This document shows positions 6 through 40,350 of a DNA stretch of 64,000 nucleotides, piece by piece. Position 1 is the first letter of the stretch, and the number at the start of each line of letters is the position of its first letter. The notes beneath the pieces are model-generated. The model was not told the DNA's origin and did no database searches. It saw nothing but the letters and a program-made list of their open reading frames with translations. This DNA is from Bacteriovoracia bacterium (GTDB taxonomy: Bacteria; Bdellovibrionota; Bacteriovoracia; Bacteriovoracales; Bacteriovoracaceae): contig JAUIIL010000004.1 in NCBI GenBank assembly GCA_030431635.1, positions 310,001 to 374,000 of the forward strand, given 5' to 3'. The position numbers and the translations under genes are program-made.

Positions 6-3000
6 TTGGGACTTAAATCTTTAGTAAAAAGTGCGCTTACTGTTGGAGTAGTGGCCGGTGCTACTTATTTTGCTGCTGAGAAAAGCTCCTTTACTCTTAA
101 TGAACCAGTTAAACAAGAAAGCTCTCAAGAAAAACCAAAACCATCAAAACTAGATCCCACAAAAGCTAAAAAAGAAAAATCTAAAAGAGAAGGAAGGCGT
201 GTCGCGAGCTCAGAGAAAGCACAGGCCCCAACTCTTAATACTACCCGTAAATCAACCAGGGCCTTAAGAGGAAGTGAAGAATCAGGAACAAAATCCTCGA
301 GTCTTGCAGCTACTTCTTCAGTTGCTCCAGCTTTGTCTGGAGGATCTTATAGCGCTAGTTTCGATCCTGTCACTCCTTACCGCAGGCCACCACCTCCTCC
401 TAGTTTTTTTGAACCAAGACCTTTTGATTTTGAAGAGGCCTTCTCAGCTTCAGCGGGCCCTCAACAAGGTCAGTGCTTTGGAGCGGGATGCTCGAATAGT
501 GCATTAGATAAGAATATAGATAACACTGAGCCGATTTCAAGTTCCTATGTTGTTGCAACTCCAGTGGATACGCCTCCAGCGCCATCAACATCAAAGGCCC
601 AAATCATCTCTGTGGGCTCACCTAAAACACCTAACGGAACATACTCAGCAGGGGATCCTGATATTCTTATTGAGATTCTCTTTACTGAAAAAGTAAGTGT
701 CCTAGGAATTCCAAGGTTGACTCTAGAGACAGGTGGAATTGATAACGAAGCTGTTTACTCCTCTGGTTCAGGAACTGATACGCTTGTTTTTAATTACAAG
801 ATTGGAAATGGAGATATCACCTCTGACCTTGATTATGAATCTGTGGCCGCTCTTAATTTATCAGGAGGAGCCATCCAAACTCTTGCTTCTAATTTACCGG
901 CCAATCTTGCTCTTCCTCCTCCAGGAGCTGGAGGTAGTCTTGCTTTGGTTAAAGATATTGTCATTACTGATAGTATTTCCCCAATAATATCATCTATTGA
1001 ATCAGTCCAGAGCGGTGGGCGTTTTGGTAATACAGATAAAATTGATATTAGAGTTTACTTTGATGAAGTTGTAAATGTTGTTGGCGGAACTCCTGAAATT
1101 GATATTGATAGCTCGGCCACGAACGTTGCGATGACTGGAGGTTCAGGAAGTAATGTTCTAGAATTTCTCTATACGGTAGCTGCTGGTGAGAATAGTTTAG
1201 ATTTGGCCGTGACAAATTTCTTGTCTGCTGGAGCGACGATAACGGACGCCAGTGGAAATACCGCGGTTCTGACTCTTCCTCCAGCTGGAAAGCGACTTGA
1301 GGATACCAGAAATTTAATTGTGGATTCTGTTGCTCCATCAATTGTAAGTGTATCGACACCCTTGTCCGATGGAATTTACGGAATAGGTTCAGTAATTCCC
1401 ATTGAAGTTAAGTTTAATGAAAAAGTCATAAAAGTGGCCTTTCCTGATGTTACCACAAACACTGATATTCCTGTTTTGGTTAAATATTATGGAGGAAACT
1501 CAACTGATACTTTGACTTTTAACTATACCGTGGGTGTTGGAGAGGATTCTGCTGATTTGGATATCACTGCGATTGGTGCAGGTGGGGGAATTAGTGACCT
1601 TGTTAATAATGCTGCAAATTTAGCGACTCTTAAAACAGGGGCCGATCCAAATTCAATGATGAGTTTAAAAAATATTGTGATCGATGGAACAATCCCTCAA
1701 GTCTCAAGTATCACTCCTCCAGCGAACAAAACTTATCATCATGGCGAAGCCATGGACTTTGCTGTCAATTTTTCTGAAGTTGTAAATGTGACAGGAGTCC
1801 CAAGACTTAAACTTAATATTTCTGGTGTTGTCAGATATGCTAATTATCTTACTGGAAGTGGAACCAACTCTCTCACTTTCCGCTACACTCCACAAAGTCC
1901 CGATGTTGATAGTAATGGAATAGCTTTTAGTACGACTGATATTGAATTTAATAGTGGAACAATAAAAGATAATGCCAAGAACACTATTAACACAAGTTTC
2001 TCTGGTGTTGTTCCAGTACTTACAAATGTTATTGTGAGCAGTTGGAATCCTGGAATTGTTAGTGACTTAAAACTTTGGATTGATGCTTCTGACTACAGTA
2101 CAATGTTTACGAGTAATGATTGTCTTACTGGGGAAGTGAATTTTCCGGGAGTTGATATAGGATGTATCAAGGATAAATCAGGTAATGATTTTCATATGAC
2201 CCAGGTAAACATTGGGACGAGACCTACCTTAGATAAAGATGCAACTAACGGTCTGAGGTTAGAACTTAACTCAGTTGAAAATGATTTTCTTCATACGCAA
2301 AACCCTATTGGATTAAATAACAACTCAAATGGCCGAACAGTTTTTCTGGTCGCTGAACTTAAGAATACCTTAAACCGTGCTCCTTTATTTGCGATGGGGA
2401 AAAATGGAGATGCCACGAGCTTTCTCTCTGTTGAGGCCAATACGTTCAATTCGGCAGGAAGTCTTCTGGGTCTTTACTCCAACGGTAATAGTTTTGACTC
2501 GACTGTCGCTACTTCAACTAATATTTTTTCGATGGGCTTCTCCTCACTTTCTGTTCAAGGAGATGTGACTAATGAAATAATTGTTATGGTTAATGGAAAC
2601 AGTTCCTCCTACACAAAGCGTTTTGGAGTTGATAGTTGGGGGAGTGCTGGTGTTTTCTCCACTTATGATAATACGGCCATAGGGATTCTGCCTGGGAACT
2701 CGATTTATACTGATGCTTATATTCATGAAGTTGTTGTTTATGATAAATCTTTACATCCAACAGAGCTGTGGTTTTTAAATTGCTATATGGGGAAAAAATA
2801 TAACTTTCTCTCCTCATTACCTGTTGGCTACTGCTCAACCCCTCCAACTCCTTATGTCACGAAAGTGCAGTCTCAGACGGCCAATGGAAACTATGAGACG
2901 GGAACAATTAGTATCGATGTGACATTTTCTGAACCTGTTAATGTGAGTGGAGCAGTTCCTTATTTAACTATTAATACAGGCTCCACAACAACAAGCTATA

Positions 3001-6000
3001 ACGCTCCGATGGTTGCAGGGAGTGGAACGAATACGCTGACTTTTGATTATCCCATCCAACCAGGGGATGAGAATTCTGATCTGAGTTATGTGAATACAAG
3101 TTCTCTTGATAATAATTTTGCTACTATTACTAGTGTAGATTCAGGGGCCAATGCTCTTCTGACTTTACCAACTCCTGGTGCGGCCTATTCCTTAAGCCAT
3201 TCGAGTGCTGTTGTTGTCGATACAAACGATCCTATTGATAACACGGCCAACGTCACTCCTGCTCAGTATGACAATGATGCCACTGATATCCCTGTGACTT
3301 GGACAGCATTTACTGATGAAACTTTAGTTGATCATAAAATAGAACTTTTTAAAGGAGATAATACTTGTAGTATTGCTCCTACTTATTTTTTTCACACGTT
3401 AAGTGGAGCCAATAATGATAATGGTGCCGTTGATGGAGTTTCTGATGGCGTTTATTGGCTAAAAGTCACTGCTATCGATGCTCTTGGACATAGTAAAACC
3501 AGTGCTTGTTCTCCTTCATCTTTAACAGTGGATACAATCGCTCCTACTATTAAATCAATCAATACAGCTCCTGCTGCTGATGGGTACTATGGGCTTGGAC
3601 AGTCTCTCTCTATTACAGTGACTTTTTCTGAAACCGTTAAAGTTTCAGGGACTCCTACAATTACTTTAGATAGCGGAGCTACAGTGAATTACTCCTCTGG
3701 AGCACCTGGGACAACTCTTACTTTTAATTATACAGTTGGAGCGGGACAGAACTCTCTTGATCTTGATGTTATTGCGATGACCGCGGGAACTTACATAAGA
3801 GATCTGGCCGATAATGATGCTGACTTAACTCTTCCCTCCTTCGGAGGACTTGATGATAGCCTTCTCGAGAATAGAGATATTGTTATTGATACAGTTGCCC
3901 CAACTATTGCTTATGTGAATCGCTTCCCTGGAATAGATGGAGTTTTTAGGCTAGGGGAGAACATTGATATCCAAGTCGTCTTCAATGAATCTGTTACAGT
4001 TTCAGGAACTCCACAAATTACTCTTAATTCAGGAGCACCGGCAGTCAATATGACTTCATACTTAAACGAAACATTAACTTTTAATTATGTTATTGGAGCA
4101 GGTGAGGCCACAAGCGACCTTGATGTGACTAATATCACTGCCGGTATAAGTATTACTGACTTAGCAGGAAATACAGCAAATTTAACCCTTCCAGCTGTAG
4201 GAAGTCCTGATGATAGGCTCATTGAAGTCAGAGACATTATCATTAATACGACGGCTCCTTATGTAACTGATATTACTTCAACTTTATCTGATGGGACTTA
4301 CTATACAGGTGACTATATTCCTCTCATTTTAGATTATGATCAAAATGTAAGAGTCATTGGAGGTGTTCCTTATATTGATCTTAATACCACTCCTCAAAAA
4401 AGAGCGGTTTATCGTAAACACCTACCGGATAATGGTGAGTTTTATGATCCTGTAACGATAGCTGGAAGTTTTAGTGATTCAGAAGTCATTGATTCTGCTG
4501 ATTATAATAATGATGGTTCTAATGACCTGGCCTTAAGAAGTGTTTCTAATAACCTCGTTCAAATATTACTGGGCAATGGAAGTGGAGGGTTCACTCAATC
4601 TGATCAGTTAAGTTTAGCTTCGGCCAGGGCCACAGTAAGTGGAGACTTTAATCAAGATGGTAATGTCGATCTTGCTATTGCTGATGATGGTTCAACCACA
4701 AAACTTTTTTATGGCAGAGGAGATGGAACCTTTACTCCTCCAGCGGCTTTAAGTGGAACAGGGACCTTCATTGAATCAAGATTTATTGATCTTAATAATG
4801 ACGGACTGGGAGATTTGATAACAACCAATAGAAGTTCAAACCAAGTCACGGTTTATATTGGAGATGGGCAAGGAAACTTCTCTGCAGGTGTTAATTATTC
4901 CACTCCCTCTAATCCGACAAAATTTGATCTCAACGACTTTAATTCTGATTCTCACTTAGATTTAATATTAACAAATAGCTCAAATAATCAAGTTTGGCTT
5001 TATATAGGTAATGGGGACGGGACATTTAATGTGGGCTCTTCTGTTGTCACTCATGGAGGGTCTCTAGGTTCAGCGATCACTTCAGGAGATTATGATAACG
5101 ACGGCAATCAGGATATTGCTGTTGCTGAAGATAATACGGCAACAATTAAAGTCTTTTTTGGGAATGGTGCCGCTTCTTTCTCATCAGGTGTCAATTTAAC
5201 TGCCTATAATAGCGTTTCTAAAATGTTCACCAAAGATCTTAATAGTGATGGAAATGATGATCTTATTTATGGAACTAATACGGCTTCTGATTATATAGCA
5301 ACGGTTATTAGTAATGGAGATAGAACTTTTCAAGCTCAAAACTCTGTCTCTATTGCCAATGGAACGTCTTACTACCAAATGAGTGATATTGATAATGATG
5401 GATTAGAAGACATTATCTTCAGTCATTCTGGTACAAGCAGTCTTTATGTTGTTTTTGCAGCTTCAAGTAAGATGGAATTTGGGTATACAATTCAAAAAGA
5501 CGATAGCTCATCTGATCTTAACTATAGCGATGCTTTTTCCTTCTTTTCTAATGGGGCCACTTTACAAAACGCAGCGGCCCTTGCCGCGGACTTACTTCTT
5601 CCTGTTGAGAGTTTTTCAAATTCACTAGGGGGAAATAAAAACTTAGTCATTGATGGAAGCGATCATACCTCTCATCGAAAAATACTTGCACCTAATATTA
5701 CCCCAACTATCAGTGATGAATTTGGAGGAGATGGAGTCGCAATTAGCGGAAACTATGCTGTTGTGGCCAGCAAGTTATATGATGGGAAAAATAAAACAGA
5801 TATTGGTAGTGTTGATTTCTATCAACATGATGGAAATGTCTGGGTTTTCAAGCAAAAGATTCTCAACCCTGAAGGGGTCGCTGCCAGTGAAGCTTTTGGA
5901 TCTTCTTTGGCAATCGAAGGGAGTAAGCTTCTGATTGGGGCCAGTGGAGTCAATGCAGGGAAAGGGTCTGTTTATTATTATGAGTTTGATGGAAATAATT

Positions 6001-9000
6001 GGGGATATAAACAAGAGCTAGATAGCTCACAAGTTTCCCTAGCTGCGGGTCAAGGAAATTCGCTTTCATTATCTGGCAACTGGGCCGTTGTTGGTGCCGA
6101 TTCTCATGAACCGGGTGGAAACGTTGGAGCCGGCGGAGCCGTTGTTTGGAAATATAATGGTGTTATTTGGGAAGAATTTCAAGTGATAGCTGCTACAGAT
6201 AATGATGCTGGAGATCAATTTGGTTATAGTGTTTCTATTAGTGGAAACTATCTTGCTGTTTCAGCTATCTCTGATGATGCCGCTGGAGTTAATGCTGGGG
6301 CATTTTACATCTTTGAATTTTCATCCAATACCTGGTCACAAAAACATAAATTTACTCCAAGTGCGACGAGTGGATTAGGAGAGTCTATCTCTATCAGTGG
6401 AGAGAGATTAGCAGTAGGTTCTCCTGCTGATAATTCAGGTAAAGGAGTTGTTCACTTCTACACTTTTGATGGAGTCAATTGGGTCTTTGTTCAAACAGTG
6501 GCCTCTGCTTCAGGAAGTACTACAGAAGGTTTTGGAACAGCAGTCTCATTACACGGAGATATTGCTATCATTGGTGCCCCTCAAGACTCTAATAGTTCAG
6601 GAACGGCCAGTGGAGCGGTTTATGTTTTTCAAGATGATGGTTCAACGTGGTATGAGAGAGATAAACTCATTCCTCGTGATAGTGGAAACAACCGACAGTA
6701 CGGCTCTTTTGTTCATACAAATGGAAAAGATTTGATTGTGGCCGCAAGGCGTGACTCCTCTGTTGTGAGTGATGGAGGAAGTTCTTATATTCACACTCTT
6801 GATATAACACAAGCTTCAACAGTGGCAGGAGTCACAGCACCAGGAACTTTTTATTTAGGTAACCCCATTTCTTTTGATATCGTTTTTAATGATAATATTA
6901 CCGTTGTTGGAGGGCCTTTGCAGTTAATGCTTAATAATGGAGGGCTCGCGACTTGTCTTTATCAGTCTCCTAATGCTTTAAGGTGTTCTTTTAATGTGAC
7001 TTTAGGTGAATACACTAATGATTTAGATTTTCTAGGCTTTGATTCTCTTCTTTATAACGGAGCTTCTGTCACTGATAGTAATGGAAAAGATGTTTCTCTT
7101 AATTTGCCAAGTTTAGGTAGCGGAAACTCTCTTGGTGATAAAACAAACTACTATCTTCCAGCTCCTCCAGCTGAGATTACGAATTTAACTGGTTATGTGA
7201 TAGATGATTCTCAAATTTATATTCAATGGGGTAACGGAGGTGGAAGTACTCAAGGCTTTCATCTGGCCTTCTCTTTAGGAGGTAGTGCTCCTGCTGATTG
7301 TTCAAGTCCAAACGTAAGCAATTATAATTCGACTTCCTATATTTTTACTGGACTTAATCCTAACCAACAATACTCTTTTAGAGTTTGCTCTTATAACCTT
7401 AATTACACAAGTGCGGGACAGACTGTTTCTTTTACAACAGATAAATCAATTAGGATGAATCGAGTGAGTAGTTGGACTGACCCAAAACTTAATGCAACAG
7501 TTAGAAAAACACTTCCACTTGTTAACGGTAAGTTTTACGCTGTCGGAAATTTTTCTGCTCGCTTTTCGGCCTTCGCTCCTAAGGCTACAGTCATTAATTC
7601 AGTAGGGGCCATGCAAACAAGCTTTAATCCAGGAGTAGGCTTTGATGGTCTTTATGTTATGGACACTGAGCCAGACCCCATCAATACAAGCCGTTATTAC
7701 ATGGCCGGAAACTTTTCAAGTTTCAATGGAGTAAATACAACACATCTGGCCCGTGTTGATATCAATGGAGGGCTTGATCTTTCCTTTGATACTAGAGGGA
7801 AAATTGATAATTATGTTTGGACAGTAAGACCTCTAGAAGATGAGACTGGCAGAGTTTATATCGGAGGGGAGTTTGCTAACTATAATGGTATTGGAAGAAA
7901 TCGTATTGCTCGTCTTAACCATGATGGAACACTAGATACAAGCTTTAATCCAGGAAGTGGTTTTAATGGCACGGTTAGAGATATTGTTCTTGCTCCAGAT
8001 GGAACAGGAGATATTTATGTCGGTGGAAGTTTTACTACTTATAACGGGGTAACTGTTAATAGAATGGTAAGGCTTAATGCAGATGGAAGTATTGACTGGA
8101 GTTTTAACCTAGGGGATTCCCCAGCAACAGTCGGTTCAAACTTTAATGGAAACATTGGTTTTGATAATAATGTGACGACAATTGAGCCTAGTCTTGATGG
8201 AAGCTTTGATATTTTCGTTGGGGGAAGTTTTTCTAATTTTAAAGCAAACCCTGAAGGCAGAATTGTCAAGCTTGAGCAAGATGGAGATAAAAGAAGCTCT
8301 TTTAATGCAGGAGTAGGGTTTGATAATACTGTTTATGCTTTAGAGACCGATCCATCAGATGTGACGACATTATATGTCTCTGGAGTTTTTGCAAATTACG
8401 CTGGAAGTGCGGCTGCTAGAATTATTAAACTGAATTTTAATGGGTCTAAAGATACTAACTTCATTAATAACTCAGGAACAACTAATAGTGAGATCCGCTC
8501 AATGCTAGTCAAGGGGAGTCATCTTTATCTTTGCGGAAGTTTTACTCAGTATAGAGGAAGCGCAATGAACCGACTGGCCAAGGTAAGTAAAACAACTGGT
8601 ACAGTAGATGGAACTTTCTTGATTGGAGAAGGCTTTGGTAGCGACTGCTACAATGCAGTCAATACAGGAAGTCATGTTCTCTTTAGTGGAGCTTTTGGGG
8701 CCTATGGTGGTTTTTATGCTAATAAAGTGGCAAGGTTTAACTCCAATGGCTCAATTGATCCGACCTTTAATGTTGGAGTGGGGCCAGATAACGGTCAAGT
8801 CTATGATGTGGCCTTGGCCCCAGATGATCCTAATGACATTTATCTCGTAGGGGATTTCACTACTTTTAATTCTGGTGCAGTTAATGCAACAGGGATTATC
8901 AGATTAAACTCAAACGGAACGGTAGATGCGAATACGACATTTAATACGGCAGCAGCAACAGGGTTTGATGCTCCTCCTTTTAGAGTTGAGTCAGCTACTG

Positions 9001-9749
9001 ATGGTGTTCATATTTATGTAGCAGGGGCCTTTACTGATTTTGACGGGCATACTTCTGAGCATTTAATTAAATTAAATAATTCAGGAAATGTCCCAGGAGG
9101 ATGGGATCTCCCAGGAAGTGGTTTTGATGGGAATGTTCAAGATATTAAAGTGGCCGATGATGGGACTCAGCACATTTATGTTGGGGGGAGCTTTAATAAT
9201 CTTGGAGGTGTGGCCACAGGGAAAATAGTGAGGCTAGATACTAATGGGGCCAGAGATAGTGGTTTTGATGCTGGACTCACAACAGGCTTTAATGGAGATG
9301 TTCTTACAATCGATAATACCGGAACAGGAAATGGGGATATTTATGTGGGTGGTATTTTTACAGATTATAACTCCAGTGGAAGTAATAAAAATAGAATCGC
9401 TAAAATTCAAGCCGATGGGACTTATGACTCAAGTTTTACTACTGGAAGTGGATTTGATTCAACTGTAAGACAAGTGAGAGTCAGTTCAGATGGCAGTGGA
9501 GATTTATACGTTGCAGGTGATTTTAACAATTATAATGCCAATAGTGATCCCATTAAGAGTTTTGCAAGACTTCAATCTAACGGAAGCCTTAAGTCAGGCT
9601 TCTACCCAGGGGCAAGAAGCTTTTCCGCTACAATTCATTCAGTCATGATGGCCAGAGATGGAAGTGATGAAGTTTTTGTTACTGGTGATTACACCGATTT
9701 TAATTTCCAAATTAATCAGTTCTTTGGAAGATTTGAATATACCCCATAA
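6..9749 (+). CDS. Giant multi-domain surface/secreted protein (Ig-like, LamG-like, FG-GAP and delta-60 repeats)
   Basis: A 3247-residue protein, probably exposed on or released from the cell. The N-terminus has one hydrophobic segment (about residues 5-24), then a Lys/Pro/Ser-rich linker. Ig-like repeats of about 115 residues (motifs such as VDSVAPSI and TLTFNYTVGAG) cover about 200-680, 945-1070 and 1180-1460. A LamG-like jellyroll lies at about 680-940. An FG-GAP/VCBS propeller with Asp-rich calcium-type loops (DFNQDGNVDLAIAD) spans about 1475-1818. A second FG-GAP propeller spans about 1890-2265, an Ig-like unit follows, then a fibronectin III-like unit at about 2388-2478. From about 2482 to the end there are more than ten delta-60 repeats (DIYVGGSFTTYNG). 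The apparent start is TTG at base 6 with AGGA only one base upstream, so the true start may lie outside the window. Adhesion is a plausible role, but this is inference. Confidence 0.9.
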   Translation: MGLKSLVKSALTVGVVAGATYFAAEKSSFTLNEPVKQESSQEKPKPSKLDPTKAKKEKSKREGRRVASSEKAQAPTLNTTRKSTRALRGSEESGTKSSSLAATSSVAPALSGGSYSASFDPVTPYRRPPPPPSFFEPRPFDFEEAFSASAGPQQGQCFGAGCSNSALDKNIDNTEPISSSYVVATPVDTPPAPSTSKAQIISVGSPKTPNGTYSAGDPDILIEILFTEKVSVLGIPRLTLETGGIDNEAVYSSGSGTDTLVFNYKIGNGDITSDLDYESVAALNLSGGAIQTLASNLPANLALPPPGAGGSLALVKDIVITDSISPIISSIESVQSGGRFGNTDKIDIRVYFDEVVNVVGGTPEIDIDSSATNVAMTGGSGSNVLEFLYTVAAGENSLDLAVTNFLSAGATITDASGNTAVLTLPPAGKRLEDTRNLIVDSVAPSIVSVSTPLSDGIYGIGSVIPIEVKFNEKVIKVAFPDVTTNTDIPVLVKYYGGNSTDTLTFNYTVGVGEDSADLDITAIGAGGGISDLVNNAANLATLKTGADPNSMMSLKNIVIDGTIPQVSSITPPANKTYHHGEAMDFAVNFSEVVNVTGVPRLKLNISGVVRYANYLTGSGTNSLTFRYTPQSPDVDSNGIAFSTTDIEFNSGTIKDNAKNTINTSFSGVVPVLTNVIVSSWNPGIVSDLKLWIDASDYSTMFTSNDCLTGEVNFPGVDIGCIKDKSGNDFHMTQVNIGTRPTLDKDATNGLRLELNSVENDFLHTQNPIGLNNNSNGRTVFLVAELKNTLNRAPLFAMGKNGDATSFLSVEANTFNSAGSLLGLYSNGNSFDSTVATSTNIFSMGFSSLSVQGDVTNEIIVMVNGNSSSYTKRFGVDSWGSAGVFSTYDNTAIGILPGNSIYTDAYIHEVVVYDKSLHPTELWFLNCYMGKKYNFLSSLPVGYCSTPPTPYVTKVQSQTANGNYETGTISIDVTFSEPVNVSGAVPYLTINTGSTTTSYNAPMVAGSGTNTLTFDYPIQPGDENSDLSYVNTSSLDNNFATITSVDSGANALLTLPTPGAAYSLSHSSAVVVDTNDPIDNTANVTPAQYDNDATDIPVTWTAFTDETLVDHKIELFKGDNTCSIAPTYFFHTLSGANNDNGAVDGVSDGVYWLKVTAIDALGHSKTSACSPSSLTVDTIAPTIKSINTAPAADGYYGLGQSLSITVTFSETVKVSGTPTITLDSGATVNYSSGAPGTTLTFNYTVGAGQNSLDLDVIAMTAGTYIRDLADNDADLTLPSFGGLDDSLLENRDIVIDTVAPTIAYVNRFPGIDGVFRLGENIDIQVVFNESVTVSGTPQITLNSGAPAVNMTSYLNETLTFNYVIGAGEATSDLDVTNITAGISITDLAGNTANLTLPAVGSPDDRLIEVRDIIINTTAPYVTDITSTLSDGTYYTGDYIPLILDYDQNVRVIGGVPYIDLNTTPQKRAVYRKHLPDNGEFYDPVTIAGSFSDSEVIDSADYNNDGSNDLALRSVSNNLVQILLGNGSGGFTQSDQLSLASARATVSGDFNQDGNVDLAIADDGSTTKLFYGRGDGTFTPPAALSGTGTFIESRFIDLNNDGLGDLITTNRSSNQVTVYIGDGQGNFSAGVNYSTPSNPTKFDLNDFNSDSHLDLILTNSSNNQVWLYIGNGDGTFNVGSSVVTHGGSLGSAITSGDYDNDGNQDIAVAEDNTATIKVFFGNGAASFSSGVNLTAYNSVSKMFTKDLNSDGNDDLIYGTNTASDYIATVISNGDRTFQAQNSVSIANGTSYYQMSDIDNDGLEDIIFSHSGTSSLYVVFAASSKMEFGYTIQKDDSSSDLNYSDAFSFFSNGATLQNAAALAADLLLPVESFSNSLGGNKNLVIDGSDHTSHRKILAPNITPTISDEFGGDGVAISGNYAVVASKLYDGKNKTDIGSVDFYQHDGNVWVFKQKILNPEGVAASEAFGSSLAIEGSKLLIGASGVNAGKGSVYYYEFDGNNWGYKQELDSSQVSLAAGQGNSLSLSGNWAVVGADSHEPGGNVGAGGAVVWKYNGVIWEEFQVIAATDNDAGDQFGYSVSISGNYLAVSAISDDAAGVNAGAFYIFEFSSNTWSQKHKFTPSATSGLGESISISGERLAVGSPADNSGKGVVHFYTFDGVNWVFVQTVASASGSTTEGFGTAVSLHGDIAIIGAPQDSNSSGTASGAVYVFQDDGSTWYERDKLIPRDSGNNRQYGSFVHTNGKDLIVAARRDSSVVSDGGSSYIHTLDITQASTVAGVTAPGTFYLGNPISFDIVFNDNITVVGGPLQLMLNNGGLATCLYQSPNALRCSFNVTLGEYTNDLDFLGFDSLLYNGASVTDSNGKDVSLNLPSLGSGNSLGDKTNYYLPAPPAEITNLTGYVIDDSQIYIQWGNGGGSTQGFHLAFSLGGSAPADCSSPNVSNYNSTSYIFTGLNPNQQYSFRVCSYNLNYTSAGQTVSFTTDKSIRMNRVSSWTDPKLNATVRKTLPLVNGKFYAVGNFSARFSAFAPKATVINSVGAMQTSFNPGVGFDGLYVMDTEPDPINTSRYYMAGNFSSFNGVNTTHLARVDINGGLDLSFDTRGKIDNYVWTVRPLEDETGRVYIGGEFANYNGIGRNRIARLNHDGTLDTSFNPGSGFNGTVRDIVLAPDGTGDIYVGGSFTTYNGVTVNRMVRLNADGSIDWSFNLGDSPATVGSNFNGNIGFDNNVTTIEPSLDGSFDIFVGGSFSNFKANPEGRIVKLEQDGDKRSSFNAGVGFDNTVYALETDPSDVTTLYVSGVFANYAGSAAARIIKLNFNGSKDTNFINNSGTTNSEIRSMLVKGSHLYLCGSFTQYRGSAMNRLAKVSKTTGTVDGTFLIGEGFGSDCYNAVNTGSHVLFSGAFGAYGGFYANKVARFNSNGSIDPTFNVGVGPDNGQVYDVALAPDDPNDIYLVGDFTTFNSGAVNATGIIRLNSNGTVDANTTFNTAAATGFDAPPFRVESATDGVHIYVAGAFTDFDGHTSEHLIKLNNSGNVPGGWDLPGSGFDGNVQDIKVADDGTQHIYVGGSFNNLGGVATGKIVRLDTNGARDSGFDAGLTTGFNGDVLTIDNTGTGNGDIYVGGIFTDYNSSGSNKNRIAKIQADGTYDSSFTTGSGFDSTVRQVRVSSDGSGDLYVAGDFNNYNANSDPIKSFARLQSNGSLKSGFYPGARSFSATIHSVMMARDGSDEVFVTGDYTDFNFQINQFFGRFEYTP

Positions 9750-13394: not shown

Positions 13395-13440
13395 ATTCCT
13401 TACCTAAGTATTGAATTAATTAGGTAAGGAATAGTTTTTT
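13395..13440 (+). terminator. Rho-independent terminator after fba
   Basis: A perfect 13-base inverted repeat pairs 13395-13407 with 13420-13432 around a 12-base loop, followed by a T run at 13434-13440. It ends fba transcription. It also sits at the stop codon of the facing small gene and may serve both directions. Confidence 0.9.
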
Positions 13441-13906
13441 AATCTTTAGTAACGTGTCTCATTCCTCTATCAACTCCAGACACACCTTGCATAACAAGAC
13501 CTTCTTGGCACTCATCAGTCTTTTTTAAGAACTCAGCAAGAACTTGTCGTTCTGTTCTCTCACTTGGAATTTTAGTCGTATCCCAATAGGAGTCATACTT
13601 GATCTCTAGCCTTACGAGTTCTTCGTACTTCTTCCCGGGGTATTGACCATAATCATAACGATATATTTTAAAGACCTGATTTCTTCTACTATCGGCTGGA
13701 TCATTTTTATCGGCTTCCATATAGCAGTAAGCTTTAGAACATCCGGCTTTTAGTGTTTGATTTTCAAGAGAAACCTTTGGGATTTCATCCTTCGCACAAC
13801 CCATAACTTCAAAACTTAAAGTTTCTCCGTTTTCTAGAACAATTTTTTCTTGAGCAAAAGCTTCAAAAAACCCTAAACACAGTAATCCAATGAAAAGTTT
13901 TTTCAT
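13439..13906 (-). CDS. Small exported protein downstream of the AAA+/M41 gene
   Basis: A 155-residue protein of unknown function. It starts at ATG 13906 with GGAGAG just upstream; a longer reading from 13930 has no ribosome site. The signal peptide is MKKLFIGLLCLGFFEAFA, cut before QEK. The mature part has several cysteines (MGCAK, KAGCSKAYCY, DECQ) that could form disulfides. It begins about 20 bases after the stop of the AAA+/M41 gene on the same strand, so the two are very likely cotranscribed and this may be a partner or substrate (inference). Confidence 0.8.
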   Translation of the reverse strand: MKKLFIGLLCLGFFEAFAQEKIVLENGETLSFEVMGCAKDEIPKVSLENQTLKAGCSKAYCYMEADKNDPADSRRNQVFKIYRYDYGQYPGKKYEELVRLEIKYDSYWDTTKIPSERTERQVLAEFLKKTDECQEGLVMQGVSGVDRGMRHVTKD

Positions 13907-13926
13907 AATCTCTCCTTTTCGAGTCC

Positions 13927-16900
13927 TCATTTCTTAGTCTTTTTTCCTTCAAATGTAAAATGGGGGTTACAATTCCCTGAATCCGCACCTTTATAGTGTT
14001 TATCTAAGATTTCTTCAAAAATGTTCAAGGCCTTCTGCATATTTTCGGTGGCCGTTGTTTGAGTTTCACCTTGTTTGAATTTTTTGGCCTTAAGGGCATC
14101 TTCAGTTGGCTCTTGAATAATATTATTAAAAAATTTGTTTAAATTTGAGGCTTCAACCCCAACGGCTTCGCCTTCCTTACCTGGATAGGGGTAATCGATT
14201 AATTGGTAAAAATTCTTTTCCGTATAAATTCCATTAAAAGCAACCTTGGTAATTTTATCGGCGTACCATTCTCTCGAGTGGGCCTTAAGAAAATCTTCGA
14301 TAATATACTTTTCCATGTCTGCCAAAATTTTTCCCATTCTCTCCATCTCTTTCGCATCTATGGTCCCATGGCCAGGCATTAAAGTAGCTGCTTTGAGAGA
14401 TCCTTCCTGATGATCGTAAATAATTCCTCTAGGATCATGGCCAAGTTTTTTCAGTAGAAAAAACAGATCGCTTGAAGCTTGGGTGATATCGCCAGAAGCT
14501 CCACTTCTAATTTGCAAATTAGCTTTATTTGATAGTGGATCATCACTTAAGAAAATTTTCTCCATGGCCCTAGCAGCAAGTAGTAAGTAAATGCTTTGTA
14601 TTCTTTCAGCAGCATTATTTGAAAAATCGTTCAGGTGCTCTTTAATAAAGCTGACAAATCCACCGACTCCATTAATTGGGGAGTAGCTTACAACATGACC
14701 AAAACGTTTTCCAAGTCGAACAGCTTCCATCGCATGTCCAAATTCATGAATAGAAGTAAGAAGTCTACCCTGGGGAACTTTTCCAAAAACTTTAGGAGAA
14801 GGAAAGCGAAGAACGACTGGGCGAGTGTAGAGTTCTCTCCAAGCTCCACCACTTCTTAGTTTTATCTTAGCGATCACAATAGGCTGCTGTCTACTTTGAG
14901 TGACTGGTTTAAAATCAAACTTTAAAACGATAGGCTCTTTCGCAAGCTGAGAGCTCTTTGGAATGCTCTTAAGAGCAAATTCTAAATCTTGGCCTAGAAT
15001 ATCTTGGACTGTGATAACAGTATTTCTCGCCCCCTCAGAAGGAATGACTGACTCAGCATAAAGATATTTTTTATATTCAGAGGAGAGTTCTGTGAATATC
15101 TGACTTAAGTTTTTCTTTGTTTTTGGGTCTGTAAATTTTTTGTCAAGAATAGAATTTGAAACAATCTTGATGAGTTTTTGATACTCAAAATGGGTTAAAG
15201 GCTTAACAATAAAAGCATTATTAATCAAACGGCTTACAGTTTCTGGTAAAAATAAGCTCCCAAAAACTTTTTTCTTATTAGCAAGAGTTCTACTCATTGA
15301 GTCCCAAGCATTCATCACATCATCAACAGAAGTTAAGCGTGGGTCAGCTTGAAAACCGAATCGGTCGACTCCAAAATTCATTGTAAGAAAAGTAAAAGCG
15401 TTTCTAATATCAAGATTAACCACATCAGTATAAGAACCTCTATTGACTGTTTTTTGTAATCGACCGCTATTCATAAGCTCTTTTAAGATTGAAATAACAG
15501 GCCTATCAACGACAAAGCCTGTTTGTGGATTAACTTCATGAATTTTATCCAGCTCCTCTATTAAAAGGACATAGCGATCTTCAGGGCCAAAGTTTTGAGT
15601 CTTTTTAATTAATTCTGTCAGAAACTTATCAACAACTTCACTTTCATTAGATTGAAAATCTTGCATGTTAATTTGAACGATTTCTAGTCCAGTAAAATGG
15701 GCCGTAAGTTTAGCGATTTCACTTTTTCCAATACCAGGGAAACCTGCTAGAAGAGAGAAGGCTGGGCGTTCCAAGTTTTTTACAGGTCTTTGAATAAATT
15801 CATCAAACCTCTCTTCAATAAGTTTTGTAATAGCATTTTGTCCAATAATAAATTGATTAATTTTTTCGGCCAGGTTTGTCTTTTGGGCCTTTACTTTGGG
15901 AAATCTTGCTTCATAGATTTGTTTTTTGGTAATAACATCAGCTCTTTCTTTTCTTTCAATTAATTCTGGAGCTGTATCTTCAACCACGCTAGGTCTGATG
16001 AAATAGTTGTTTTCTTTATTAAATTCAATATCAAAGTCAAACTCATCATCGGTTCTCATGCGCCATTGTTTGTTTGTATAGAGCATTGGCGTGACTTTAA
16101 TATTTGTTATGCCTCGTTCTTGGTTATAGTCAAGTAAGAGGTGTCTAGGTCTATTAAGCTCTTCTCCATCAGAAGGTCCTTTGGCCTTTGTCCCATAGTT
16201 AATGAGATAGTTGATATAGTTTTTAACATGGAAAACAGTCATCCTCGCTCCTGTTGGAGGATCGACTGAATGTTGTTTGAAAAAATCAACTAAGTTTTCA
16301 GTATAACTGACTTTGAGCTTTCTTTCTTTGAAAGTCATTAGATTACTAGCGATACTGGCTTCGATATTGGCCTTGACAATTTTTCTGTAATCAACATCGT
16401 TAAGAGGTTTAACGATACTAATATTGGGGCCGAGTCTTCCCACCGTATTAGGTCTAAAAAGTTTTGAGAGGACTTTGTTTTTGGCAGAAGGTTTCGTCGT
16501 AATCCATTCATGAAACTTTTCAAGATCTTCGATAGAGTAATCAAAGAAGTTCTTTTTCTCCTTTAAAATTTCTTCTGAGAAATTACTGATCTCTTCGCTA
16601 GAGAAGTTCATCGCTGTTAAAATAAGAGCGTTAGAAAAATCTAGAACAGTTCTTCCATAATCAACTTTTCCATCAGTAAGAATCTCATTTAAAGAGCCAA
16701 TAAGGTAATTAGTTCTTTCACCAAGAGGGCCTTCTCCTTGAGTAATCTCTGGAACTTTGTCGATTTCATCAAAAATAACAGCAGTGGGATTTCCCTTCTT
16801 CAGATTTTCTGAGATTTGATAGAAGATATTTTTTAAATCCCATTCTTTTTCATAAGAAATAAATTGTTGAGCTTCAATAATAAAGACATCAATACCAGTC

Positions 16901-17283
16901 ACTTCCTTAATTTTGGCTAGCATGGCCGACTTCCCAATACCAGGAAGTCCAATCAGATGCATAGCAACGGGATCTTTTTTTCGTGAACCAAAATTCTCTA
17001 GAGTTTGAACAAGTTTATGTTGAAGAAGGTTGGCCACTTCTTCTTGCCCTACGATCTCCTTACTGATTTCTTCACTAAGAGTTAAGGCCTTCTTAATGTA
17101 TTTTTGCATTTTGGAAGATCCATAACGGGCTTTATTAATCTTATTGAGATCGTAGCGTCCATCACCAATATTAACTTCAACATCATTAACTGTTTTTTTC
17201 TCATCACCATTTTGAGCAAAAAGATTTGAATGACAAAAAATAAAGAAGAATAAGAATAGAAGGGGTGATTGAAAAAATGACAT
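13927..17283 (-). CDS. Exported-looking double AAA+ ATPase with FtsH-type (M41) zinc peptidase domain, copy A
   Basis: 1118 residues. A hydrophobic signal-like N-terminus (1-24, ending LFAQ) is followed by two Clp-type AAA+ modules and an M41-like peptidase. Module 1 has Walker A GLPGIGKS (112-119), Walker B AVIFDEID (168-175), a sensor-1 Asn in AMNF and a sensor-2-like GAR (345-347). Module 2 has Walker A GFPGIGKS (514-521), Walker B LLIEELD (Glu in place of the usual Asp) and GAR (751-753). The peptidase domain has HEFGH at 846-850, a helix like FtsH's GRAAEE (LAARAMEKI, 901-909) and the probable third zinc ligand Asp932 in SGASGDI. FtsH itself has one AAA module and two membrane helices; I know of no family with this order. 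The start ATG has GGAGAA five bases upstream. A paralogue lies at 32638-35859. The function is probably ATP-driven unfolding and proteolysis, but the compartment is puzzling. Confidence 0.9.
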   Translation of the reverse strand: MSFFQSPLLFLFFFIFCHSNLFAQNGDEKKTVNDVEVNIGDGRYDLNKINKARYGSSKMQKYIKKALTLSEEISKEIVGQEEVANLLQHKLVQTLENFGSRKKDPVAMHLIGLPGIGKSAMLAKIKEVTGIDVFIIEAQQFISYEKEWDLKNIFYQISENLKKGNPTAVIFDEIDKVPEITQGEGPLGERTNYLIGSLNEILTDGKVDYGRTVLDFSNALILTAMNFSSEEISNFSEEILKEKKNFFDYSIEDLEKFHEWITTKPSAKNKVLSKLFRPNTVGRLGPNISIVKPLNDVDYRKIVKANIEASIASNLMTFKERKLKVSYTENLVDFFKQHSVDPPTGARMTVFHVKNYINYLINYGTKAKGPSDGEELNRPRHLLLDYNQERGITNIKVTPMLYTNKQWRMRTDDEFDFDIEFNKENNYFIRPSVVEDTAPELIERKERADVITKKQIYEARFPKVKAQKTNLAEKINQFIIGQNAITKLIEERFDEFIQRPVKNLERPAFSLLAGFPGIGKSEIAKLTAHFTGLEIVQINMQDFQSNESEVVDKFLTELIKKTQNFGPEDRYVLLIEELDKIHEVNPQTGFVVDRPVISILKELMNSGRLQKTVNRGSYTDVVNLDIRNAFTFLTMNFGVDRFGFQADPRLTSVDDVMNAWDSMSRTLANKKKVFGSLFLPETVSRLINNAFIVKPLTHFEYQKLIKIVSNSILDKKFTDPKTKKNLSQIFTELSSEYKKYLYAESVIPSEGARNTVITVQDILGQDLEFALKSIPKSSQLAKEPIVLKFDFKPVTQSRQQPIVIAKIKLRSGGAWRELYTRPVVLRFPSPKVFGKVPQGRLLTSIHEFGHAMEAVRLGKRFGHVVSYSPINGVGGFVSFIKEHLNDFSNNAAERIQSIYLLLAARAMEKIFLSDDPLSNKANLQIRSGASGDITQASSDLFFLLKKLGHDPRGIIYDHQEGSLKAATLMPGHGTIDAKEMERMGKILADMEKYIIEDFLKAHSREWYADKITKVAFNGIYTEKNFYQLIDYPYPGKEGEAVGVEASNLNKFFNNIIQEPTEDALKAKKFKQGETQTTATENMQKALNIFEEILDKHYKGADSGNCNPHFTFEGKKTKK

Positions 17284-17470
17284 TAAGCGTTCTCCATTAC
17301 AGCACTAGCAAGTTTAACTTTTATGCTTCTAGCAGTGACTTTGAGTCAAGACAAGAGCAATGCGTTTAAAAAAAGAACTCATAACGCAAAGTATAGATAA
17401 AAAAAATCACTATCTTAACATGTGCAAATGAAACTTCTTTTTGAAAAAGGCAAGATGGTTGCAACAGTTA

Positions 17471-29187: not shown

Positions 29188-29889
29188 ATGCGTTTTCAGA
29201 AAAACAACGAGCAAATCAGTTACAAAGACTTTAGTGAAATGTTCCCCAGACAAGGGAGAATCCTCTCTGGACATGCGGAGAATTTCCCTCAGTTGACGCT
29301 AAACTTAGAAGAGTTGTGGTCTTTTTCTGAAGAGGGGATGAAGTTAGAAAATATTGCTATCGATCTTAAAAAAATGCTCTCTTATCACCAGAGTTTTTTT
29401 TATAAACACTCTATTTATAAAGAAAACCTTGCTAAGGCCTTAGGACTTAAAAAACAAAATCGTTTTTTTAAGGTTATTGATTTAAGTGCAGGGTTTCTCA
29501 GTGATACTGCTTTGATGTTAGCGATGGGGCTTGAAGTGATTTGTTATGAGCGCAATCCTTATCTGGCTTGTCTTATTGATAGAGAAGTAGAGAAGTTAAA
29601 TTCTGATAAACTTCATTTTTTTTATGGAGAGTACGAGCAGGGTGAAGGGGATGTTTTTTATTTCGATCCGATGTATAGCGAAAAAAACGATAAGAGTGCT
29701 CCTAAGAAACAAATGCAGTTTTTACGTCAATTTATTGGAGTCGATGAAGACGCGCAAGAATTTATTTTAAAGATAAAAGAGAAGAAAAAGCGCTTAGTTA
29801 TTAAACGTTCAAAAAAAGCTCCGTCCTTACTTGAAAATCCTTCTCATCAAGTGATAGGAAAATCAACTCGCTATGATGTTTATTTTTGA
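29188..29889 (+). CDS. rsmJ: 16S rRNA m2G1516 methyltransferase RsmJ-like
   Basis: A 233-residue S-adenosylmethionine-dependent methyltransferase matching the RsmJ (YhiQ) family, which methylates G1516 of 16S rRNA. The family pattern is clear: LAKALGLKK, then the SAM-binding VIDLSAGFLSDTALMLAMGLEVICYERNP (given here in parts: VIDLSAGFLSDTALMLA, ICYERNP), the catalytic-site FYFDPMYSEK with KKQMQFLRQFIGVDEDA, and LVIKRSKKAP near the end. Length is close to the usual 250. It is divergent from gcvP, and its last ten bases overlap the facing MutS-like gene. Confidence 0.88.
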   Translation: MRFQKNNEQISYKDFSEMFPRQGRILSGHAENFPQLTLNLEELWSFSEEGMKLENIAIDLKKMLSYHQSFFYKHSIYKENLAKALGLKKQNRFFKVIDLSAGFLSDTALMLAMGLEVICYERNPYLACLIDREVEKLNSDKLHFFYGEYEQGEGDVFYFDPMYSEKNDKSAPKKQMQFLRQFIGVDEDAQEFILKIKEKKKRLVIKRSKKAPSLLENPSHQVIGKSTRYDVYF

Positions 29890-31512: not shown

Positions 31513-32556
31513 TTATGTTCCTCTTACAGGTGAAGGTTGGAGAACTTTTTTCTTGAGAAGTTCAAAAATACTCTCTTTCACTTTTTCTTTTTCAGGATTT
31601 TTGAATACAGGTTTTTTCGTTGATGTACGAAGAAAAGTAGTTAATTGAAATTCCCCGTCAACCTTCTGCAGTAAATAGTCAATATAGACACCCGTTTTAT
31701 TTTTAGAAAACCTTTGGGGAGTACTTGGTATAGACATCCTCTGGACATAAGGAGTATTACTTGCATTAAGGCTTCCAACTTGTTGTTTCACTTCCTGCTC
31801 AAAGGTTGCGTTATTAACATTTTCTATTAGTGACTTATTGATATTTTTATAATCAATGCTTTGGTAGAGCCAGCTGATGTCTTGATCTTGAATAACAGTT
31901 TCTAAAAGTTTCTCAATAACGGAATCAGATGAATACTCAATATAATTAAAGATTGAATAGAAAAAAGCAACATTAGTTGTTAAGGTGAAATAGGCACTAA
32001 AAAAGTCAGAGTTGATTTCATGGGTAAAGAAGAAAGGTCGAATAATATTAAAAAAGATATTTGCTAGGGCCACAGTCCCATAAAAACCATTAATAATATT
32101 ATTACCCTCAAGAGTTTTTTTGTTTGAAATTTTAAGTTCATTTCTTAGTTGAATAATTCCTTCAAGGTGCTTAATAATTCTCTCTTTACCTTTAAGAACG
32201 ACACCATAATTTTTGCCATCTTTTAAAAACTCTCCAGGTTTATGAAATGAGCGTTCAATCCCGTAAACACGAGAGGCCATTGCTGAATAAGATTTTTGAG
32301 AGAAAACTTCTGAACTGGCCTTAACTTTATCTATACCAGGAATAATTTGAGCAATATTAGTCTCATTTTCTTTGAGAATATCTCTTAAAAAAGAGCGAAA
32401 AACTTCATGAGCATGTGATGTTTCTTCTTCTAGACCTAGTGTAATATGGCTTTTTAATAGAGAGCTACAACTAAGGGCCTTGTTTTTTGGGGTGACCCCA
32501 GCAAAAAGATGGGCACTTAAAAGAAATGTAAGTACTTGAAAAAACAAAAATTTCAT
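31513..32556 (-). CDS. Exported membrane-associated protein of unknown function
   Basis: A 347-residue protein with a signal peptide (FLFFQVLTFLLSAHLFA, cut before GVT). A middle region, about residues 155-215, holds two hydrophobic segments (GFYGTVALANIFFNIIRPFFF and FTLTTNVAFFYSIFNYI, each shown partly), which suggests membrane insertion. The flanking parts are helical and charged. No family is recognised. The layout of signal, helical part, paired hydrophobic segments and C-terminal domain resembles the MutS-like protein encoded next, but no clear sequence match was found. It lies 81 bases after AAA+/M41 copy B and two bases before the MutS-like gene, so it is almost certainly in the same operon. 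Confidence 0.8.
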   Translation of the reverse strand: MKFLFFQVLTFLLSAHLFAGVTPKNKALSCSSLLKSHITLGLEEETSHAHEVFRSFLRDILKENETNIAQIIPGIDKVKASSEVFSQKSYSAMASRVYGIERSFHKPGEFLKDGKNYGVVLKGKERIIKHLEGIIQLRNELKISNKKTLEGNNIINGFYGTVALANIFFNIIRPFFFTHEINSDFFSAYFTLTTNVAFFYSIFNYIEYSSDSVIEKLLETVIQDQDISWLYQSIDYKNINKSLIENVNNATFEQEVKQQVGSLNASNTPYVQRMSIPSTPQRFSKNKTGVYIDYLLQKVDGEFQLTTFLRTSTKKPVFKNPEKEKVKESIFELLKKKVLQPSPVRGT

Positions 32557-32637: not shown

Positions 32638-35600
32638 TCACCACCCTCGTCTTGTTGGGTTTGATTGTGAGCCTTTTGTTTTTGCACTAAGTTTGTCGTT
32701 ACACAAAATAGGGTTCTGAATTAAAGTTGTTTCAAAGAATTTCAAATACTCTTTTTGAAAGTCAGCAACACTTCTTCCCTTTAAATCAAAAGAGATTTTC
32801 TGGGTTGAAGCTCCAATAGGTTTACTAGGAGAGCGGACTTCAACCACATCTTGAAAAGCGCTTGCGATAAAAGAAGCTTCGTTCTGAGTTTCATGTATCA
32901 TAGGAAGATCAATCAAACGATAGAACTCCTCTCCTTTTAAATCTCCTAATCTCGCAATTTCAATAATTTTCTCTTTCATCCACTCCATGGAAAAACTATC
33001 GGTGAGATCCTTGACCATTTTATCTTCCATCGCTGCAAGAAGATGGCTCATCTTCTCAACTTTTTCAAATGGAAGAGCTTGGACGTTGTAGTAAATATGA
33101 TCAGTATCTTTACCCATATGGTAATCAAATGGCCCTCCGTTTGGATCAAGTCCACTTCTCATTAGTCTAGAAAAAAGGCTTTTGGTGAGGTTCTCAATAT
33201 CTCCTCCGGAGCCAAGTGTGATATCAAGAACAGATGCTCTTTCAAGGGCCCTCCCAGAGAAAATAACTCTTTCCATGGATCGAGAGGCAACAGTTGCGTA
33301 CAAGTGATAAATTTCTGATTTAATACTTAGGATATCTTCTTGGTTGGCGAACTTAACAAAACCATTATCAAGATCATAAGCGGAAACTCTTTCAACCTCT
33401 AAACCGAGTAGGACAGAAACAAGAGCATGTCCAAACTCATGGGCCGCAACCATGAGTCTGTCCTCAGGAATGGCCCCATGAATTTTTACATCAGGAAATC
33501 TTAACTTAATATTCTGATTAAATAGTGAGAATTTTTTCTGAGCTGAATTCTTAACATGAGCATCGGCCGATATCATTTGTTTCTTTGGCTCATAGTCAAA
33601 TTCAATAACTAAAGGTTGTGTGAGATATTTTCTGGGAATTTCAATCATCGCTTTTTCAATAGTATTTAAAATTAACTTTTTGCTTGAATTGAAAGTGAAA
33701 CGTCCTCCTTCAGAGGGGACAATAGTTTCATTTTTAATTAACTGAAAAAAACTATCTGTAAAACGAGCATCGATGAAACCGTGATCTTGACCTTTAACAT
33801 AAAAGCGTTCTTTAAGAGCACTGACCATTTGTTTGCGAATAATTTTCTCATAGGCTTCTTCGTCCAGAGGCTTAAGAACTGTTAAGCTATCAAGCATTCT
33901 GTTAACTGTTTCTGGGCGAAACATTCTTGAAAGAACTTCTTTTAAGTTTTTTAATTGAATGAGCTGCTTGTAAGCTTGAAACGTATCATCGATTGTTGTG
34001 AGTCTTGGGTCCGCTTCAAATTTAAAAAGAGCAACATTAAAGTTCATAGTTACAAAAGTGAAAGCATCGTTAATATTAAGCTTAAGAGTCGTATCTCCTC
34101 CCCAAGCATCAGCAACAGTAATAGAGCTCTTACCAGTATCCAAGAGTTCTTTAAGAACAGGTAGAACAGCTCTATCTTTTAATTCTCCATTGGGGGCAAT
34201 TTCAAAGAGTTTATCAAATTCATCGAAAGAGATAATATATTTACCTGTCGGATTATCTTTAAGGGCTTTGGTAATCTTTGAGTTAACATCTCGAAAGAAA
34301 GATTCAAGAGTTTTATTATCGTTACCATTATATTTAGAAAGTTCAACTTTAACCTCAGGAATATCTAAGAACTTGGTTGTGTAATTAGAAATCTCAGATT
34401 TTCCAATACCAGGAAATCCAATCATAATTTCATAATTGGGTCTAGTGATACTTCCGCTCTTAAGTCCCATGTATTTACTAATTTGTTTAGAAAGAGGAGC
34501 GGTGTAGAACTCTTGGCCGTAAACATTTTGATTAAGAAACTTCTCTAATTTAGAGGCAAGCTGAAGGTCATATGGTTGTCTGGCGTATTTGATTTGGGTT
34601 CTTGTGACATCAAGAGCTTTAAAATAACTCTTAGGAATACTTAAATCAAGGTCATCAGGAACAGTGATAATCTTTTTTGAATCATTATAAGAAAATTCCA
34701 TTTTTAACACTTCTTCAGAAGCAAGTTCATATTGAGTTCCGACTCTTTTTAGAGGATGGACATTCAAGAGGGCTTTTTTCTCTATTTCATCAAAACCAAT
34801 TTCAAAACGAACAGGGAGATCTCGATATTTTTTTTCAAACGATCTTTTAGCAAGAGCGTAACTAATAATTTGTTCAGTCAGATCCCGCGCTTTATAGACA
34901 ATGGGTCTAGCTCCTTCTGCTGGGTAGATCATATTGTTAACTAAAAAGTCAAAGTACTCATTAGAATAACTAATATCATTTATTGTGAAAGGAGATTCTT
35001 TTAAATTCTTAATGGTGTTTTCAAGATGGTATTTAACAACTCTTTTGTAGGCATCCTTATCAAAATGATTCATAAAATGAGTATTGGTGGCCAAACGACT
35101 CACTGTATTTGAGCGGTACATTTTTGAAAGAACCATCCTGATGGCCTCTGGTTTATCCTCAAGCCATTTCGTGAACTTTGTAAAATCCTCTATCCCAAAC
35201 TTGTAAAAATCTTTTTTTTCATCGAGAGCTTCTTTACTAAATTCACTAATAACATTAGTAGGGAAGTTCATCGTGGAGAGAATAAGGGCATTATTAAGAG
35301 TAACGTTTGAGTAGCCATTATTCAGAAAACCTTCAACTAGAATTTGGTTAACAGCTGCGATAAAAGGATGGGTTTCAAATTCATTTTCTTTCGTCATCTC
35401 TTTAATTTTATCTAGTTCATCAATAAGAAGGATAAAAGGTTTATTAGGATCCTCAATCTGATCTTTAATGGCCCAAACAAGACCACCGATATTTTTAGGG
35501 TCGATATACTTTTGAGCATCAATATGTACCACTGGCATAATTTTTCTTAAAATATTTCCTATCTGGCTTTTCCCCGTGGCAGGGAAGCCAATAAGGTTAA

Positions 35601-35859
35601 TATTAATGGGTTCTTTTCTTTCAAGGCGAAAGTTCGAGACATATTGATAGAGGCTTGCGTGAAAGGCTTCAATAATTTTTTCTTGGGCCACAAGATTATT
35701 TAATAAATCAGCTTTTACATCAATCACATTTTGAAGAAGTGCTCTCTCATCACTACTGCCATATCTATTTCTTGCGATATCGGCTTTTTTATAAGTCGGA
35801 TCTTGGGCGAAGGTTTGAGTTGTAAAAAGAATAAGTGTCAGGAGAATCAATTTTTTCAT
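32638..35859 (-). CDS. Exported-looking double AAA+ ATPase with FtsH-type (M41) zinc peptidase domain, copy B
   Basis: 1073 residues with the same architecture as the protein at 13927-17283. A classical signal peptide (MKKLILLTLILFTTQTFA, cut before QDP) is followed by a short conserved region with RYGSS (32-36), which copy A also has. AAA+ module 1 has Walker A GFPATGKS (91-98), Walker B FILLIDELD (142-150) and GAR (316-318). Module 2 has Walker A GFPGIGKS (481-488), Walker B YIISFDEFD (541-549) and GGR (718-720). The M41 part has HEFGH at 807-811 and the probable third zinc ligand Asp887 in GSGGDI. Both copies share ADPRLT before the second small domain and the run LRFP..K..G..P..RL before HEFGH. 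No strong ribosome site is visible. It heads a three-gene operon. Confidence 0.9.
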   Translation of the reverse strand: MKKLILLTLILFTTQTFAQDPTYKKADIARNRYGSSDERALLQNVIDVKADLLNNLVAQEKIIEAFHASLYQYVSNFRLERKEPININLIGFPATGKSQIGNILRKIMPVVHIDAQKYIDPKNIGGLVWAIKDQIEDPNKPFILLIDELDKIKEMTKENEFETHPFIAAVNQILVEGFLNNGYSNVTLNNALILSTMNFPTNVISEFSKEALDEKKDFYKFGIEDFTKFTKWLEDKPEAIRMVLSKMYRSNTVSRLATNTHFMNHFDKDAYKRVVKYHLENTIKNLKESPFTINDISYSNEYFDFLVNNMIYPAEGARPIVYKARDLTEQIISYALAKRSFEKKYRDLPVRFEIGFDEIEKKALLNVHPLKRVGTQYELASEEVLKMEFSYNDSKKIITVPDDLDLSIPKSYFKALDVTRTQIKYARQPYDLQLASKLEKFLNQNVYGQEFYTAPLSKQISKYMGLKSGSITRPNYEIMIGFPGIGKSEISNYTTKFLDIPEVKVELSKYNGNDNKTLESFFRDVNSKITKALKDNPTGKYIISFDEFDKLFEIAPNGELKDRAVLPVLKELLDTGKSSITVADAWGGDTTLKLNINDAFTFVTMNFNVALFKFEADPRLTTIDDTFQAYKQLIQLKNLKEVLSRMFRPETVNRMLDSLTVLKPLDEEAYEKIIRKQMVSALKERFYVKGQDHGFIDARFTDSFFQLIKNETIVPSEGGRFTFNSSKKLILNTIEKAMIEIPRKYLTQPLVIEFDYEPKKQMISADAHVKNSAQKKFSLFNQNIKLRFPDVKIHGAIPEDRLMVAAHEFGHALVSVLLGLEVERVSAYDLDNGFVKFANQEDILSIKSEIYHLYATVASRSMERVIFSGRALERASVLDITLGSGGDIENLTKSLFSRLMRSGLDPNGGPFDYHMGKDTDHIYYNVQALPFEKVEKMSHLLAAMEDKMVKDLTDSFSMEWMKEKIIEIARLGDLKGEEFYRLIDLPMIHETQNEASFIASAFQDVVEVRSPSKPIGASTQKISFDLKGRSVADFQKEYLKFFETTLIQNPILCNDKLSAKTKGSQSNPTRRGW

Positions 35860-39939: not shown

Positions 39940-39978
39940 GGCCTTATTCTCCCATCTTAAAGATTGTTTAACAAGAAT

Positions 39979-40324: not shown

Positions 40325-40350
40325 GAAAAACTTTAACCTAATATTATTAA

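Follow-up and report, generated by a model that had tools for sequence, protein, structure and literature searches.

A family of exported-type proteins joining two Clp D2-like AAA+ modules to an FtsH-type zinc peptidase

We describe a protein family in which a signal peptide, two AAA+ modules and an M41-like zinc peptidase follow one another in a single chain (SP-AAA-AAA-M41). The best explanation for this architecture is, we think, that the proteins are Sec-exported AAA+ zinc proteases that probably work outside the cytoplasm and are driven by ATP. The first member, P0001, is encoded in the window, the stretch of 64,000 nucleotides analyzed here, together with a second member, P0002 (Table 1). 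It is the order of the domains that appears to be new; the AAA+ protease kind to which the family belongs, Clp D2-like modules and FtsH-type peptidases are all known. AAA+ proteases are thought to be confined to compartments that contain ATP, and the family challenges this view if it is extracytoplasmic: the retention of both signal peptide and ATPase residues across two phyla means either ATP-driven proteolysis outside the cytoplasm or an unusual topology. If the former is true, the family would be more than a variant of the AAA+ protease kind.

Table 1. Features of the two family members, their surroundings in the window and two neighboring genes at other family loci
Feature	Coordinates	Strand	Remarks
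P0001 gene, exported-type AAA+-AAA+-M41 protein	13927..17283	-	1118 aa, ATG start
Shine-Dalgarno-like GGAG	17292..17295	-	8 nt before P0001 ATG, read directly
P0001 predicted signal peptide, residues 1-23	17215..17283	-	predicted cleavage LFA/Q; similar N-termini in 12/12 readable members
P0001 AAA+ module 1, residues 60-372	16168..17106	-	Pfam, profile comparison, AF2 model and Foldseek
P0001 AAA+ module 2, residues 455-778	14950..15921	-	Pfam, profile comparison, family alignment
P0001 M41-like zinc peptidase domain, about residues 806-1035	14179..14868	-	profiles and fold
P0001 HEFGH, residues 846-850	14734..14748	-	zinc ligands H846, H850; catalytic E847
P0001 D932, third zinc ligand	14488..14490	-	in SGASGDITQAS (FtsH motif GAxxD); alignment
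P0001 C1105, sole Cys of mature protein	13969..13971	-	read from sequence
163-aa signal-bearing protein	13439..13930	-	start overlaps P0001 stop by 4 nt (ATGA)
P0002, second family member	32638..35859	-	1073 aa; own signal peptide, two AAA+ modules, HEFGH
P0002 predicted signal peptide	35806..35859	-	MKKLILLTLILFTTQTFA followed by Q; hydropathy and cleavage-site pattern
P0002 HEFGH	33427..33441	-	read from sequence
347-aa exported-type protein, no known family	31513-32556	-	hydrophobic stretch around residues 160-205
MutS-like ATPase	29880-31511	-	MutS_V E=1e-27; intact GPNARGKS and MDE
Chaperone-usher/SCPU-type pilus cluster	35953-40821	-	PapD-like chaperone, usher-like 796 aa, weak spore coat U match
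Giant repeat-rich surface-type protein	6-9749	+	3247 aa
PepC/bleomycin-hydrolase-like (papain-like) peptidase, Elusimicrobiota	L016:7843-9621	+	Peptidase_C1_2 E=1e-82; signal peptide
Exported protein-glutaminase-like enzyme	L015:8964-9848	+	Gln_deamidase_2 E=2e-24; directly upstream of family member

An earlier note on this DNA had pointed to a signal-like N-terminus (residues 1-24) in P0001, and this is borne out. The protein begins with MSFFQSPLLFLFFFIFCHSNLFA, followed by QN. Of the 41 window ORFs scored, which fall into a cytosolic type (core at most about 1.5-1.7) and an exported type, it has the most hydrophobic core (Kyte-Doolittle 3.24 over 10 aa). The A/Q ending recurs in the signal-bearing window ORFs at 13439, 18442, 32638, 36854, 44011 and 52911. 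In all 12 family members readable at this end (L008/L019, with an assembly gap there, is left out of the count) the N-terminus resembles a signal peptide: it opens with a few residues that are often positively charged, continues into a hydrophobic core (KD 2.1-3.24) and, in nearly every case, reaches an A-x-A or comparable site, the residues themselves not being conserved. The earlier note had allowed for a start site that removes the hydrophobic segment. This is unlikely, both because of the conservation of the feature in the family and because the spacing of the GGAG and an upstream open frame that continues for only 7 codons make M1 the likely start. A promoter scan was uninformative (12 promoter-like sites versus 9.8 expected). 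Hydropathy reveals no second transmembrane helix in P0001 (maximum KD-19 1.13), and without another hydrophobic segment long or strong enough the body would not be returned inside. These features are strong pattern evidence, though not proof of location, that the family is Sec-exported with a cleavable-type signal peptide. Cysteine depletion was dropped as a sign of export, since the genome's own Clp (3/798) and FtsH (3/654) are also Cys-poor; every complete Bdellovibrionota member retains a C-terminal Cys, which the Elusimicrobiota members lack.

The N-terminal segment could instead stay uncleaved and anchor a cytoplasmic body, which would make the protein an FtsH-like membrane protease with an ordinary ATP supply. 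FtsH too bears N-terminal transmembrane helices, the ATPase motifs of the family are fully kept, and positive charges come soon after the segment in several members (GARRRR in L011, PTKKRK in L015). However, a hand count gives a charge sum of about +25 before the segment versus about +10 just after it, which favors an N-in/C-out orientation; the hydrophobic segment is single; the cleavage sites, A-x-A or A/Q, are typical of the genome; and the linkers of the Elusimicrobiota members vary, are rich in Ala and Pro and span some 100 aa or more. We regard a cytoplasmic body as rather unlikely.

At the other end of the chain, P0001 is M41-like by sequence, motif and predicted fold. The HEFGH motif and the Asp932 ligand that the earlier note had read there hold up, and both are kept in 11/11 members with a complete C-terminus. 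Searched singly against Pfam M41, P0001 scores 13.6 bits, below the cut-off of 29.9, yet PF01434 is matched by 12/12 family C-termini (best E=1e-9). The family profile matches Thermus FtsH structures (E=3e-9) in an alignment that pairs the two His, the Glu and the Asp. When the C-terminal domain is modeled on its own with AF2 (pTM 0.75), the 43 best PDB matches found with Foldseek are all FtsH-type (FtsH, m-AAA and FtsHi). Profile, motif and fold being all FtsH-type, a C-terminus that is not M41-like, which had been considered before, does not agree with the results.

The two AAA+ modules with intact Walker A motifs, also claimed earlier, are present in P0001. Module 1 has Walker A at 112-119 (GLPGIGKS), Walker B at 169-173, sensor-1 N226, Arg finger R283 and sensor-2 R347; module 2 has Walker A at 514-521 (GFPGIGKS), Walker B at 572-577 with a Walker B-like EE at 576-577, sensor-1 N636, Arg finger R685 and sensor-2 R753. 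The Walker A Lys, sensor-1 Asn, Arg finger and sensor-2 Arg are found in both modules of 12/12 members. The Walker B Glu is present in every module of the 12 save one module 2, where the pair is ED; in module 2 the Walker B Asp is replaced by Glu (EE) in 10/12 members, the eleventh reading ED. Pfam AAA/AAA_2 matches occur in two places in P0001, well above cut-off, and there is a match to a ClpB D2 small domain. When profiles are compared, AAA1 and AAA2 are the closest pair (E=1e-47). The next-nearest are ClpB D2 (E=2e-14 and 3e-11, about 240 columns) and the D2 of the genome's own Clp (~240 columns), and the matches to ClpB D1 or the FtsH AAA are weaker and partial. The alignment to ClpB D2 takes in the pre-sensor hairpin (DGKVDYGRTVLDFSNALILTAMN in the family) and pairs the FRPNTVGR/FRPEFLNR finger and the GAR sensor-2. 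From these comparisons, both modules are of Clp D2-like (HCLR) type and stem from an internal duplication. P0001 thus joins a duplicated Clp D2-like motor to an FtsH-type peptidase and is not a double FtsH; the earlier label FtsH-type stands for the M41 peptidase and fails for the AAA+ modules, which by profile lie nearest to Clp D2. In the same alignment neither module offers a counterpart to a GYVG-type pore loop, so that threading through the ring is doubtful. The AF2 model of the full chain (pLDDT 76, pTM 0.42) has ClpA, ClpC and ClpB as its best PDB matches by Foldseek, with TM-scores of about 0.2 on the query, so low that the match speaks for a tandem of Clp-like modules but says nothing about how they are arranged.

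We scanned all GTDB species with conserved-motif patterns drawn from a family alignment (another alignment was too diverse for patterns) and obtained matches in Bdellovibrionota and, unexpectedly, Elusimicrobiota. Because these patterns require short stretches to match exactly, the scan may have overlooked more divergent members in other taxa. The spread of the SP-AAA-AAA-M41 order, which the earlier note had proposed to compare, is sparse: members occur in 8/369 Bdellovibrionota genomes (6 of 182 genera; same result with a better profile) and in 4/341 Elusimicrobiota genomes, one in each. Within the 369 genomes, no member was found in the others of the window organism's own taxonomic family, and P0001 as a single-protein query gave no match in a first scan of genome contigs. 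Collections of phages, plasmids and viral contigs yielded no family member, and such an origin was rejected. The order is held in members 27-39% identical to P0001 in two phyla, and the retention of so odd a combination makes it look like a real, undescribed protein family. P0002, encoded about 15 kb from P0001 and on the same strand, is 30% identical to it over 1004 aa. In a 13-row tree, which carries long-branch warnings, the Elusimicrobiota members cluster together (81/93), and P0001 does not pair with P0002 as its sister. A recent tandem duplication of P0001 and P0002 was rejected on this ground, though long branches weaken the tree.

Each part of the chain resembles a known system from which the whole differs. 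Like FtsH (PF01434, TIGR01241), the family has a C-terminal zinc peptidase after an AAA+ motor, with HExxH and GAxxD motifs and the same predicted fold. FtsH, however, has one classic-clade AAA module, N-terminal transmembrane helices and a cytoplasmic body, whereas the family has two Clp D2-like modules and, by hydropathy, one signal-type hydrophobic segment. Against TIGR01241 (NCBIfam cut-off 600 bits), P0002 scores 23.0 bits and P0001 has no match, and the genome also has an ordinary FtsH. With ClpA, ClpB and ClpC (Hsp100) the family shares the tandem AAA+ pair, the pre-sensor hairpin, the FRPxxxxR finger and the GAR sensor-2. Those proteins combine a classic-like D1 with a dissimilar HCLR D2, carry the GYVG pore loop and have no peptidase domain, whereas in the family both modules are D2-like, such a loop is missing, and the chain has its own peptidase in place of ClpP and is of exported type. 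Curated NCBIfam scores are 37.5 of 1232 bits for ClpB and 35.7 of 993 for ClpA, and there is no Pfam Clp_N match in P0001. The AAA1 region of P0001 also matches the PADLOC model of DolB (E=7e-14), a ClpB-like protein of the Dodola defense system, which includes a partner, DolA. Membership was rejected: the DolB model is 375 aa long, P0002 is unmatched and no DolA-like neighbor is present. No model in Pfam or NCBIfam spans the whole chain, and phrase searches of 5.39 million open-access papers for a periplasmic or secreted AAA+ gave no paper, in line with the earlier view of a distinct architecture belonging to no described family.

The precedents for AAA+ proteins outside the cytosol are eukaryotic. 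Torsins, AAA+ proteins of the ER lumen and nuclear envelope, share with the family a signal sequence, a Clp/Hsp100-related AAA+ and missing aromatic pore loops (PMC7175109). A Torsin, however, lacks the arginine finger (PMC7175109), which LAP1/LULL1 supplies, whereas the family's own R283 and R685 are invariant; it has one AAA module and no peptidase, and the Pfam Torsin model gives 23.7 bits (cut-off 27). Plasmodium HSP101, part of PTEX, is a Clp-type double AAA+ unfoldase exported into the malaria vacuole outside the parasite (PMC7355975); it differs in its ClpB-type D1 and D2, its work with a membrane pore and its lack of a peptidase.

As the earlier note had anticipated, an exported protein of this type would meet scarce ATP, and the puzzle is real, the periplasm being described as containing no ATP (PMC12428200). 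An ATP/ADP translocase was considered as the supplier and rejected, with none above cut-off in the 12 carrier genomes. That the AAA+ modules are a nucleotide-independent scaffold of a simple secreted zinc peptidase, as ATP not being expected outside, the missing pore loops and the EE of module 2 in 10/12 members might suggest, is very improbable, since a dead scaffold would not be expected to keep its ATPase residues unchanged in each module and in both phyla. Their retention under deep divergence indicates that ATP must be available at the work site at least part-time, and its combination with a retained signal peptide suggests that selection evidently favors an extracytoplasmic ATPase.

The earlier note had raised delivery into another cell. 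Release into prey or host, whose ATP would then be used to degrade that cell's own proteins, would solve the problem of ATP supply. Bdellovibrionales, which are known for predation, are among the carriers, and the neighbors of family genes are rich in exported proteins. A Sec signal alone, however, carries a protein across the producer's own inner membrane only, and no linked injection system or target was found. Moreover, the gene is present in only 8/369 Bdellovibrionota, and the four Elusimicrobiota carriers are no obvious match for an explanation limited to predators, as we know of no predation in that phylum. We consider this kind of delivery unlikely.

We favor Sec-exported, ATP-driven zinc proteases. 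The chain would cross the inner membrane via Sec and then fold outside the cytoplasm; by analogy with FtsH and ClpAP, it may form a stack of hexameric rings in which the peptidase occupies one end; ATP would be used for remodeling proteins and feeding them into the zinc site; and its simplest source would be lysed or leaky neighboring, prey or host cells. Ring assembly, pore threading and ATP source are the least certain steps, and the absent pore loops, the Walker B EE in AAA2 and the low pTM of the full-chain model are weak points of this mechanism. In a wider and more tentative proposal, quite possible in our view, some bacteria unfold and degrade proteins with ATP outside their own cytoplasm by means of an exported zinc protease that carries two AAA+ modules in one chain and draws its ATP from prey, host or lysed neighbors, as counterparts of ER Torsins and vacuolar HSP101.

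The ATGA overlap suggests that the 163-aa protein is probably co-translated with P0001. None of the other 11 carriers has a homologue of it, neighbors vary between carriers, and a conserved partner gene was rejected. A chaperone-usher pilus cluster lies directly upstream of P0002, and two exported-type genes, for the 347-aa protein and the MutS-like ATPase, lie downstream, the former sitting between P0002 and the latter. The MutS-like ATPase, two genes from P0002, starts with a segment like a signal peptide and is hydrophobic again around residues 138-188, and is thus a second exported- or membrane-type NTPase. As it has no strong homologue (E<=1e-40) in the 368 other genomes of the phylum, it was ruled out as a co-conserved exported partner. 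At other loci, the recurrence of signal-bearing protein-modifying enzymes beside family members is, given the small numbers, only suggestive: the protein-glutaminase-like enzyme of L015, an exported M28 peptidase that adjoins the family member in L028, and, directly upstream of the member in L016, an exported papain-like peptidase of the PepC/bleomycin-hydrolase family, which is normally cytosolic.
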